Below, in pieces: positions 3,691 through 8,173 of a DNA stretch of 64,000 nt; within the stretch, counting starts at the first letter, position 1; the number at the start of each line of letters is the position of its first letter. A model generated the notes under the pieces. That model searched no databases. It was not told where the DNA came from and saw nothing but the letters and a program-made list of their open reading frames with translations. Both the position numbers and the translations under genes were made by a program. The stretch lies in the NCBI RefSeq assembly GCF_000420485.1, contig NZ_ATVA01000017.1, positions 1 to 64,000 on the forward strand, in the 5' to 3' direction. Source of the DNA: Paucidesulfovibrio longus DSM 6739 (GTDB lineage: Bacteria; Desulfobacterota; Desulfovibrionia; Desulfovibrionales; Desulfovibrionaceae).

Positions 3691-3881
3691 AGAATGCCTC
3701 CGGCGGCCAGAGGGCCCGCGGCCCTCTGGACTCCCTTTCTGCGGCAAAAAGCGATGCTGCGCATCCGCTTTTCGCCGCGAGCAGGGGCTATGGCAGGCTC
3801 TTTCTTGCGGCGCGACCAGCGCCGCCGAATGGGATTCCAAAGGGGCATTGCCCCTTTGGCCGCCGGAGGCGCATCTTCTTC
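3691..3881. repeat. Palindromic mosaic repeat, copy A
   Basis: The element starts with GAATGCCTCCGGCGGC and ends with the inverted GCCGCCGGAGGCGCATC. Just inside each end is a hairpin (CAGAGGGCCCGCGGCCCTCTG on the left; AAAGGGGCATTGCCCCTTT on the right). A further imperfect hairpin around GCGATGCTGCGCATC lies in the middle. Copies B, C and D in this window share the ends and the layout but not the stem sequences. It occupies most of the gap between pgeF and hisI. Nothing else was seen in 3678-3930. Confidence 0.8.
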
Positions 3882-6539: not shown

Positions 6540-6570
6540 CCGCAGGCATGCAAGCTTGGCCCCTGCTCGA

Positions 6571-6640
6571 CCTGTCTGCCCCCGCCTGTCTGCCCCCGCC
6601 TGCCTGCCCCCGCCTGCCTGCCCCCGCCTGCCTGCCCCGA
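6571..6640. repeat. Five 14-bp tandem repeats
   Basis: Five head-to-tail units of CCTGYCTGCCCCCG fill 6571-6640. The first two have T and the next two C at the variable position, and the last unit is degenerate at its end (CCCCGA). There are no spacers, so this is not a CRISPR array. Copy number may vary by slippage. Confidence 0.9.
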
Positions 6641-6808
6641 AATTCAAATTTTTTGCCCACCACCGCCCCCCCGGCAACGCTGACCCCCCGCGAAATCACC
6701 GCCGCCAAGCCAGGACACGGCAGGCCGCGCTCCGAAGTTTACATTTTTTCTTATTATATCACAGCATCTTATAGCCGGACTGCACGACTCAAGCTCCCGG
6801 CGCGCGAA

Positions 6809-6857
6809 AATTTGTACCTGAACAAGGCGCTCTGCTCCCACGTTCAAGATTTTTTAC
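6809..6857 (+). promoter_or_regulatory. Putative enhancer (UAS) modules of sRNA unit 1
   Basis: AATTTGTAC (6809-6817) and GTTCAAGATTTTTTAC (6842-6857) recur upstream of the second unit at exactly the same distances: 147 and 114 bases before the TGGCAC of the sigma-54 promoter. The sequence between and after the modules is not conserved, so these islands look like protein-binding sites. The position fits binding of a sigma-54 enhancer-binding protein. Confidence 0.55.
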
Positions 6858-6955
6858 CAAAAAACTCTGCCAGCCCGGCATGGGCAAAACCAGAGCAAGA
6901 CACAACAGCTTGTTTTTATGCGATTTATTTTCTTATTTGCTTTTATGGCGGGCTT

Positions 6956-6970
6956 TGGCACGAGCGTTGC
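6956..6970 (+). promoter_or_regulatory. Sigma-54 promoter of sRNA unit 1
   Basis: TGGCACGAGCGTTGC matches the -24/-12 consensus TGGCACG-N4-TTGC at every conserved base, with exactly 10 bases between GG and GC. Transcription should start about 12 bases downstream, near 6982. No gene start follows within reach; a short hairpin-terminated RNA does. Confidence 0.85.
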
Positions 6971-6981
6971 TATATTAGAAT

Positions 6982-7050
6982 TATCCTTCACAATTCCTTC
7001 CTTCACGAGAAATTTACAGGCTCCCCCCTTCAGGGAGCCTTTCTCGTTTC
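6982..7050 (+). ncRNA. Putative sigma-54-dependent small RNA, copy 1
   Basis: The predicted RNA of about 70 nt starts near 6982. It has a pyrimidine-rich 5' part with repeated CCUUC (UCCUUC, UCCUUCCUUC) and ends in an 8-bp hairpin (7018-7025 with 7033-7040, loop CCCUUCA). An outer stem CGAGAAA (7006-7012) with UUUCUCG (7040-7046) extends it. The 5' part and the loop are complementary to Shine-Dalgarno-like GAAGG, suggesting an antisense riboregulator of translation. It is almost identical to the copy at 7677, while the DNA outside promoter, RNA and UAS has diverged. The final U-run is short and interrupted, so the 3' end is the least certain part. Confidence 0.65.
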
Positions 7051-7072
7051 CAGGCCCTGGGAAAAGAGCGAA

Positions 7073-7318
7073 GAGGCCTCCGGCGGCCAGAGGGCCCGCG
7101 GCCCTCTGGACTCCCTTTTTGCGTCGAAGCCCGATGCTGCGCAGGCGCAGCATCGGGCTTCGACGCGAACGGCCTCCCCGGATATGGAGTTCTCTCAGGC
7201 GCTCTCGCAGCCTTGGCGCATCCCTTGCGCGGCGCTGGCCGGATGCGAAGCATCGGACAGCGCCGCCGAACGGGGTTCCAAGGGGCCGCGGGCCCCTTGG
7301 CCGCCGGAGGCATTCTTT
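7073..7318. repeat. Palindromic mosaic repeat, copy B
   Basis: This copy has the same ends as copy A (GGCCTCCGGCGGC and GCCGCCGGAGGCATTC). Inside are a left hairpin GAGGGCCCGCGGCCCTC, a long perfect hairpin around 7113-7162 (arms GTCGAAGCCCGATGCTGCGC), an imperfect hairpin GGCGCTG...CAGCGCC, and a right hairpin CAAGGGGCCGCGGGCCCCTTG. Stem sequences differ from copy A but pairing is kept. It lies between the two sRNA units. Confidence 0.8.
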
Positions 7319-7503
7319 CTTCTCCCCGCACCGGGCCGAATCCAATTTTTTCAACTCCGCTGTCGCCGTCCCGGCCTGCGCCCTGGACTTTTTTGCGCCC
7401 TGCCCTGTGGCCTGCGCTGTTTCGCCTCGCATTTGCTCGAAAATTATCCTGCGATTACAGGATGTTTTTGCCGCGATTTCGCACGGAGCACGCTGGTTCC
7501 AAG

Positions 7504-7552
7504 AATTTGTACTCGGATCCGGGCCGGGCACCGCCCGTTCAATAATTTTTAC
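7504..7552 (+). promoter_or_regulatory. Putative enhancer (UAS) modules of sRNA unit 2
   Basis: AATTTGTAC (7504-7512) and GTTCAATAATTTTTAC (7537-7552) stand 147 and 114 bases before the TGGCAC at 7651, exactly as in unit 1. The 24 bases between the modules differ between the units, so only the putative binding sites and their spacing are conserved. Confidence 0.55.
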
Positions 7553-7650
7553 TCATTCGCACTCCCTCGGACCTGCCCGGCAAGCAATTCGTATCAGCAA
7601 CACACTGCAAAATCAGGATAAAAAAATATTCTGCCTGCCAACTGCAACTT

Positions 7651-7665
7651 TGGCACGAGCGTTGC
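7651..7665 (+). promoter_or_regulatory. Sigma-54 promoter of sRNA unit 2
   Basis: The same perfect TGGCACGAGCGTTGC as in unit 1 is present, and identity continues through the initiation region (TATATTAGAATTATCC). The predicted start is near 7677. The DUF4911 gene starts 140 bases further on, beyond the hairpin. Confidence 0.85.
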
Positions 7666-7676
7666 TATATTAGAAT

Positions 7677-7744
7677 TATCCTTCATCACTCCTTCCTTCT
7701 TCGAGAAATTTTGGCTCCCCCCTTCAGGGAGCCTTTCTCGTTTC
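7677..7744 (+). ncRNA. Putative sigma-54-dependent small RNA, copy 2
   Basis: The predicted RNA of about 68 nt is nearly identical to copy 1. It begins UUAUCCUUCAU, carries UCCUUCCUUC, and ends in the hairpin GGCUCCC-CCCUUCA-GGGAGCC (7713-7719 with 7727-7733). The outer stem CGAGAAA (7702-7708) with UUUCUCG (7734-7740) is conserved although the bases between the stems changed. The few substitutions fall in the linkers, not in stems or the CCUUC motifs, which suggests selection on structure and seed. Read-through would reach the DUF4911 gene 73 bases later, so a leader-RNA role for this copy cannot be excluded. Confidence 0.65.
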
Positions 7745-7816
7745 TGGGCCTGAGAAGTGGGGCCATTCTGCCTGCTTCGCCTTGACGCTTCCCTGCCTGA
7801 CCGGGCATAGGGGGGC

Positions 7817-8173
7817 ATGTCCAACTCCACGCACGACGCCGCCCCGCAGGGCAAGGCGCGCAAGCCGAAGCGGGTTCGTCCGCGCCGGGGCCGGGTCTTT
7901 CCCGCGCCGGACTGGTCCGCGCGCGCGTATGTGCGCGTGGCCCGCTCGGACGTGGCTTTGTTCCGTTTTCTGCTCGAAGCCTGGGACAACCTGGCGCTGT
8001 TCACGGTGGTGGACCGCGCCGCAGGCATTCTCATGCTCCGGTTCAGCGCACATCAGGAGCGCGAAGTGCGCCTTTTCCTGGAGGCGGCCCGCTCGGAAAT
8101 CGCGGTGGAGCCGGTCTGCTGGCCGGGAGCGGACGCAGCGGGCGCCGGGCCTGTGCCGCCGATGAAGCTGTAG
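7817..8173 (+). CDS. DUF4911 domain protein
   Basis: This 118-residue protein has a basic N-terminal tail (GKARKPKRVRPRRGR) and then a compact domain, ARAYVRVARSDVALFRFLLEAWDN through EREVRLFLEAA, that resembles DUF4911. That family is a small ACT-like fold found in Desulfovibrio and Geobacter, and its function is unknown. No good Shine-Dalgarno is evident; AGGGGGGC just before the ATG is the best candidate. It lies between the second small RNA and a strong terminator. Confidence 0.75.
   Translation: MSNSTHDAAPQGKARKPKRVRPRRGRVFPAPDWSARAYVRVARSDVALFRFLLEAWDNLALFTVVDRAAGILMLRFSAHQEREVRLFLEAARSEIAVEPVCWPGADAAGAGPVPPMKL

Follow-up and report, generated by a model that had tools for sequence, protein, structure and literature searches.

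The Qrr RNAs of Vibrio, controlled by LuxO and sigma-54, come from a handful of small genes in each genome; every gene has its own sigma-54 promoter and upstream activator sites, and the short RNA finishes in a terminator. The LuxO-type operator reads TTGCA-N3-TGCAA. The enterobacterial GlmY/GlmZ system likewise comprises sigma-54-driven small RNA under a response regulator, GlrR. Qrr, GlmY/GlmZ and CrcZ are presumably among the families with an Rfam model. In Pseudomonas, CrcZ, CrcY and CrcX are described as several RpoN-dependent ncRNAs under an NtrC-type activator, CbrB, acting with sigma-54 (PMC8657755). Within the Desulfovibrionaceae, D. vulgaris Hildenborough is reported to have four sigma-54 ncRNAs, which lie near DVU0653, DVU0679 (Dv_sRNA2), DVU2357 and DVU3282 (PMC4641369, PMC3333781); Rajeev et al. 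(2011) placed Dv_sRNA2 downstream of DVU0679 (PMC3333781), and Kazakov et al. (2015) listed all four (PMC4641369). The ncRNAs of O. alaskensis have also been predicted (PMC11124144). A sequence-only reading of the DNA studied here had known of no such family in Desulfovibrionaceae. This has to be corrected, because the four ncRNAs reported in D. vulgaris Hildenborough (PMC4641369) are a precedent for sigma-54 control, and the kind is thus already known. No description of the present RNA family was found among the matches listed for Desulfovibrio and Desulfovibrionaceae sRNAs, sigma54 and enhancer-binding proteins (EBPs), a search with most subscription journals outside its scope.

This study found a conserved, apparently new RNA family of Desulfovibrionaceae, which is set beside the D. 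vulgaris sigma-54 ncRNAs by description only and whose mechanism we infer. The window, meaning the whole stretch of 64,000 nucleotides of Paucidesulfovibrio longus DSM 6739 that was analyzed, holds two copies. As read from the DNA, each copy is a predicted unit in which two dyad enhancer sites precede a perfect -24/-12 sigma-54 promoter; after it come a 5' tail rich in C and U, a hairpin with a bulge and a U-run. The features are as follows:

6801..6818, + strand: putative distal enhancer (UAS) dyad, copy 1, CGCGCGAAAATTTGTACC, weak left half; motif score 7.7 bits, below the shuffle 99% level of 9.5, so that its support is positional (centre 146 bp from TGGCAC)
6841..6858, + strand: putative proximal enhancer dyad, copy 1, CGTTCAAGATTTTTTACC; score 19.3 (this unit belonged to the motif's training set), centre 106, 40 bp from the distal site
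6956..6970, + strand: sigma-54 -24/-12 promoter, copy 1, TGGCACGAGCGTTGC, by sequence
6981..7049, + strand: predicted sRNA 1, start at about 6981-6982 as judged from promoter spacing, end at the U-run, CCUUC at 6985-6989
7006..7046, + strand: predicted terminator hairpin of sRNA 1, CGAGAAA / bulge / GGCTCCC-loop-GGGAGCC / TTTCTCG, by folding and covariation
7496..7513, + strand: putative distal enhancer dyad, copy 2, GTTCCAAGAATTTGTACT; score 11.7, centre 146
7536..7553, + strand: putative proximal enhancer dyad, copy 2, CGTTCAATAATTTTTACT; score 18.2, centre 106, spacing 40
7651..7665, + strand: sigma-54 promoter, copy 2, TGGCACGAGCGTTGC, by sequence
7676..7743, + strand: predicted sRNA 2, CCUUC at 7680-7684, by repeat, folding and profile match
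7702..7740, + strand: predicted terminator hairpin of sRNA 2, by folding and covariation

Both promoters, at 6956 and 7651, are present in the window as the sequence-only reading had claimed. The bare promoter motif says little by itself, with five sites within one mismatch of TGGCACNNNNNTTGC in the 64 kb window versus a shuffle mean of 4.9; the significance of the observation lies in the surrounding repeated unit. The near-identical segment reported after each promoter was recovered in a direct-repeat search as two blocks, one of 52 nt (94% identity) and one of 38 nt (95%), offset by 695/694 bp, and no further direct repeat besides the sRNA unit was found in 6700-7800 at the settings used. 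AATTTGTAC and GTTCAA lie exactly 147 and 114 bases before TGGCAC in both copies, as reported; these modules are halves or wholes of two palindromic enhancer sites. The hairpin GGCTCCC-CCCTTCA-GGGAGCC was found at 7019-7039 and 7713-7733, but it is longer than described, with outer arms CGAGAAA/TTTCTCG across a 5' bulge; the folding z-scores of the window hairpins were -4.9 and -3.4. Four ORFs over 6548-8034 (two per strand) had no Pfam match, and therefore no recognisable protein gene follows copy 1, again as had been noted. The word "twin" fits the two copies of the window and is too narrow for the genome, which has a third match, and for the family, which is multi-copy in many genera. Two other repeats were observed in the window. 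A near-perfect 25-bp inverted repeat with a 2-nt loop lies at 7118-7169 between the two sRNA genes. In addition, a dispersed, G+C-rich, intergenic-looking repeat around GCCGCCGGAGGCATTC occurs at window positions 3692, 7300, 8264, 23560 and 23755 (five matches versus 0.28 expected), one copy lying between the two sRNAs.

A BLASTN search with the unit was performed in same-family genomes. Matches were found in 27 of 247 genomes and 11 of 44 genera, and many of them, read by eye, kept the architecture with diverged hairpins. On reading, the matches L019, L020, L025, L026 and L027 were rejected as units (L, G and g numbers are our handles for loci, genomes and genera). L014, L016, L028 and L031 were also dropped, the segment downstream being a different one. 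Three of these loci (L014, L016 and L031, from g40 genomes G136 and G211) have sigma-54 promoters with TATATT and then another shared leader outside the sRNA family, CCGCCGAC..GGCGGT..AATATATACG, of which G211 has two copies. TGGCAC and TGCTA were invariant in a 23-row alignment of units. The first covariance model, R1, covered the promoter and RNA of 23 units and no enhancer sequence; it is in effect a sequence profile, because RNAalifold chose a false TGGCA/TGCTA pairing. At E<=0.01, where the weakest matches may be bare promoters, R1 matched 166 of 288 Desulfovibrionaceae genomes and 27 of 44 genera. The P. longus genome has three matches, two of them in the window. By hand count, and with the same caution about the weakest matches, at least two per genome were found in all 17 matching genomes of g8, 35 of 36 of g5 and all 14 of g25; tandem copies are often 0.28-0.7 kb apart, with three in G104 and three in G093. 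At E<=1e-5, R1 matched 81 of 297 order-level and 2 of 247 phylum-level genomes, all belonging to Desulfovibrionaceae, and no match outside this family was found in these two samples. Among 30 further genomes, hand-picked mostly for weak R1 matches, 24 matched at E<=0.001. The promoter was present in 29 of 30 loci fetched with R1 (absent in L176), and 25 also passed a crude test for tail, hairpin and U-run; L164, L165, L172 and L182 failed its hairpin or U-run part, the units of the last three having no clear U-run. A strict-pattern scan of named genomes returned four records, of which the Desulfotomaculum one had no RNA by eye.

The RNA itself was then considered apart from its promoter. Among 46 RNA-only sequences, 10 of the 11 core stem pairs had changed on both sides. 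This alignment was obtained from 52 distinct rows minus L070, L071_2033, L078_8001, L092_8350, L102 and L104; L084_8292, L091_8001 and L091_8285 were outside the RNA-only set because the end-finding pattern failed on them. Core stem cells were paired in 94.2% versus 77.3% when shuffled (0/500 shuffles), and the covariation score was 0.561 versus 0.259 (0/500), with a sharp drop when the stem was slid. Because the stem columns were picked on this same alignment and related copies inflate such counts, the slid control leans toward the reading; the counts of pairs and of pair types, which are less inflated, were also above all shuffles. A second model, R2, made from the RNA without promoter sequence, was run at E<=0.1 on 20 loci (371 kb) outside the training set and gave 23 matches in 13 of them. 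Nineteen of the 23 have a -24/-12 promoter in place, and all 19 have at least one enhancer site; the remaining four come from L190, where each of two ordinary terminators was matched on both strands. In seven loci (L183-L187, L200 and L201) the known unit escaped R2. Three of the 19 units were absent from the R1 list (L193:4152, L192:10344 and L195:9399), and only these are fully new, since R1 had served to choose the loci. Related genomes thus conserve the promoter together with the hairpin, a test set beforehand, as seen in the R1 matches, in the compensatory changes of the hairpin and in the promoter-blind matches. In Rfam, no family reached its gathering score for the window and 20 related loci, and only weak matches appeared at loose E-values.

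The enhancer motif is a palindrome near GGTACAAAATTTTGTACC that occurs in pairs, and in both window copies the site centres lie 146 and 106 bp before TGGCAC. Of the 61 training units, 60 had at least one site at the 9.5-bit cut-off and 54 had two, spaced 40-42 bp apart in 27, 52-54 in 23 and otherwise in 4. These counts are circular; those of the 19 independent R2 units are not, and tandem copies are mutually dependent in both. All 19 independent units had at least one site and 17 had two, with spacings of 51-53 in 14, 40-41 in 2 and 30 in 1. In shuffled upstream DNA (training and independent sets, respectively), one site was found in 1.4% and 0.9% and two in 0% and 0.1%. Of the 30 loci fetched with R1, 28 likewise had at least one site over 9.5 bits. 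Spacings of 40-42 or 51-54 account for 50 of the 54 training pairs and 16 of the 17 independent ones; they are near four or five helical turns, which suggests binding on the same face. In long loci totalling 1.23 Mb, selected for a unit or the candidate regulator, no enhancer pair (>10.5 bits, spacing 39-43 or 50-54) was found except at a unit. A lone 18-mer with three mismatches was not enriched in 16 genomes, where the backward control had more matches. Of 18 loci fetched by the enhancer 18-mer, 10 had a unit in view and 8 did not (L105, L108, L109, L110, L113, L114, L116 and L118).

The units can now be compared with the described systems. They have what is expected of a sigma-54-dependent sRNA gene, namely a -24/-12 promoter directly before the predicted RNA, also in the 19 promoter-blind matches, and, by motif evidence, upstream activator sites at a fixed distance before the promoter. 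The sequence-only reading, that of putative sigma-54-driven small RNAs, is supported by the conservation, the compensatory changes and the promoter-blind matches. Like Qrr, the units are multiple short predicted RNA genes, each with a sigma-54 promoter, upstream sites and a terminator. Unlike Qrr, they have no Rfam match and their matches are confined to Desulfovibrionaceae in the samples searched; the enhancer consensus also differs from the LuxO-type operator. The units share with GlmY/GlmZ a predicted sigma-54-driven small RNA under a response regulator, the latter being only a candidate in Desulfovibrionaceae, but they are shorter, multi-copy and without Rfam match. Several ncRNA genes under sigma-54 control also recall CrcZ, CrcY and CrcX, with the NtrC-type activator again only a candidate here; the units differ from them in being much shorter, with a single C/U-rich tail and no Rfam match. 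With the D. vulgaris ncRNAs, compared by description only, the units share the bacterial family, a sigma-54 promoter, EBP control (predicted for the units) and non-coding character. However, three of the four D. vulgaris ncRNAs are reported to adjoin their own EBP gene, whereas for the present units a motif search found an EBP in 5 of 61 long sources, with one adjacent.

The 5' tail of the units is G-poor (10% G). In 75 of 80 units CUUC occurs in roughly the first 23 nt (the other five have none), mostly as CCUUC or UCUUCC, with a mean unpaired probability of 0.84 and a lowest value of 0.07. The complement of CCUUC, GAAGG, looks like a Shine-Dalgarno sequence, and the tail is similar to the anti-Shine-Dalgarno end of 16S rRNA; for these reasons, pairing with ribosome-binding sites is favoured. 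The seed-complement pattern GAAGGATA-N2-10-ATG gave 64 matches in seven genomes versus 9 for the backward control, an enrichment that a Shine-Dalgarno sequence plus ATG would produce anyway. No cross-genus target was found in this narrow search of seven genomes, orthologous sites being common only within a genus: rpsE-, fbp- and lysC-like genes (by eye) in g1, and two others in g25. We consider it probable that the units encode lineage-wide, trans-acting sRNAs that are activated by sigma-54 and an EBP and use their unpaired CCUUC 5' end to pair with Shine-Dalgarno-like sequences. An enhancer-binding protein, working in trans, would bind the two palindromic sites on the same DNA face and loop to Esigma54. 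Transcription would start about 12 bases after the -12 GC, and the RNA, roughly 60-78 nt long, would end, as judged from sequence and covariation, at its own hairpin and U-run. Its C/U-rich unpaired 5' tail may then pair with the GAAGG-type Shine-Dalgarno sequence of target mRNAs and block translation, perhaps with Hfq bound at the U-rich stretch. With several copies answering to one activator, dosage could be additive or redundant.

Other explanations were weighed against this reading, and the gene neighbourhood bears on two of them. The window pair has EamA on one side and DUF4911/NhaB genes on the other; past copy 2, DUF4911 at 7817 is the first gene that can be recognised, and NhaB comes next on the opposite strand. 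Counted on real proteins with gene names given by eye, 24 of 61 long sources, from 14 of 20 genera, have one unit near YrdC/Sua5-type and NUDIX genes; glgA accompanies the NUDIX gene in 18 and glgB is found in 17 of these 61. The order is Sua5 upstream of the unit and NUDIX-glgA-glgB downstream, on the same strand, and the syntenic copy of P. longus is its third copy, C11:275661 (L065, C11:267661-283757). This synteny suggests an ancestral locus, perhaps linked with glycogen metabolism. No GAAGGATA was seen at the ribosome-binding sites of NUDIX, glgA, glgB and Sua5. The unit might instead be a sigma-54 leader whose attenuator controls the gene after it, which would be DUF4911 for copy 2 and NUDIX-glgA-glgB at the conserved locus. 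The DUF4911 ORF begins just 73 bases past the end of sRNA 2, and the unit is upstream of and on the same strand as NUDIX wherever the start was placed, in keeping with the synteny. However, the NUDIX start lies anywhere from 153 to 1687 bp beyond the promoter of the first unit in the 12 loci placed, 37 of the 61 long sources have no Sua5 and NUDIX pair, copy 1 precedes no recognisable gene, and a strong terminator-like hairpin ends most units, all of which makes a leader improbable. A dispersed repeat or mobile element that has a promoter-like end but serves no function in the cell, already disfavoured, is very improbable: copies do recur within a genome, often in tandem clusters, but the window repeat is limited to the unit itself, the stem covaries, the enhancer spacing is constrained and one unit is syntenic in 14 of 20 genera. 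That the RNA mainly titrates a protein, either an RNA chaperone or a translational regulator, in place of pairing with mRNA is unlikely but deserves more weight than these two. EBP-driven RNAs that sequester Crc/Hfq, as CrcZ/CrcY do, are described in Pseudomonas (PMC8657755). CCUUC is repeated in some units, including the two of the window, and U-rich stretches are common. Against this, the RNA is very short and its conserved single-stranded part is mostly one element at the 5' end; units such as those of L077 have a single CUUC.

A further alternative concerns only the activator. The EBP genes near units, found by a motif search that can miss some, are in four cases orthologous PAS-type EBPs of g5 and in the fifth a PAS-type EBP adjoining the unit in L071. 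Searches of small genomes, each with a unit, gave two EBP matches in G215, one in G229, three in G209 and five in G275. A response regulator with REC, AAA+ and Fis-type HTH domains was found in G215, G209 and G275 and in 29 of 30 other tested genomes, with best hits of 65-88% identity and the next group at 46% or less; in P. longus it lies at C17:258179-259537. In the two genomes examined with Pfam, G211 and G148, a histidine kinase gene directly precedes it. The conserved membrane histidine kinase and this NtrC-type response regulator are the best activator candidate, by elimination only. G229 has a unit, but the regulator was not found there; it is also present in G006, G047, G029, G031 and G087, where searches gave no clear unit (G029 has weak matches, best E 0.005). 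Its operon showed no enhancer pair in 20 loci, only a lone site each in L326 and L332 (12.3 and 12.5 bits). A one-component PAS-type EBP or an EBP of about 865 aa in the membrane is a serious competitor, at somewhat less than even chances. The orthologous PAS-EBP genes lie 4-6 kb from the unit in four g5 loci, another is right beside it in L071, and the 865-aa type is the only EBP found in G229. However, EBPs were found near few units, the four g5 cases may be one event, and the 865-aa type is not among the three EBPs found in G209. The TyrR-type HTH (PF18024) was tried as another route to the activator and dropped; it led to several EBPs, none linked by motif. As separate observations, the sigma-54 activators of about 865 aa in L206, L209 and L212 (from G229, G215 and G275, very small Desulfovibrionaceae genomes) look membrane-anchored and have no Fis-type HTH by eye, and the PAS-EBPs 4-6 kb from the unit in L078, L080, L090 and L096 have clustered cysteines in the PAS region and may be redox sensors.

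In sum, the trans-acting sRNA reading is preferred. A broader proposal, which we regard as doubtful, is a Qrr-like hub across the Desulfovibrionaceae, in which one conserved membrane kinase and NtrC-type regulator would drive dispersed and tandem RNAs of the same purpose, their 5' ends mimicking the 16S anti-Shine-Dalgarno tail, for graded, additive repression of a broad set of GAAGG-type mRNAs on an envelope or energy signal. The covariance models allow immediate annotation across the Desulfovibrionaceae, and the conserved dyad, with its spacings near four or five helical turns, provides a testable handle on the regulator. If transcribed as predicted, the units would be a further case, outside the Gammaproteobacteria, of several sigma-54-driven RNA genes under one activator, and would form a major conserved riboregulator family of sulfate-reducing bacteria, a group in which we found little published sRNA work.
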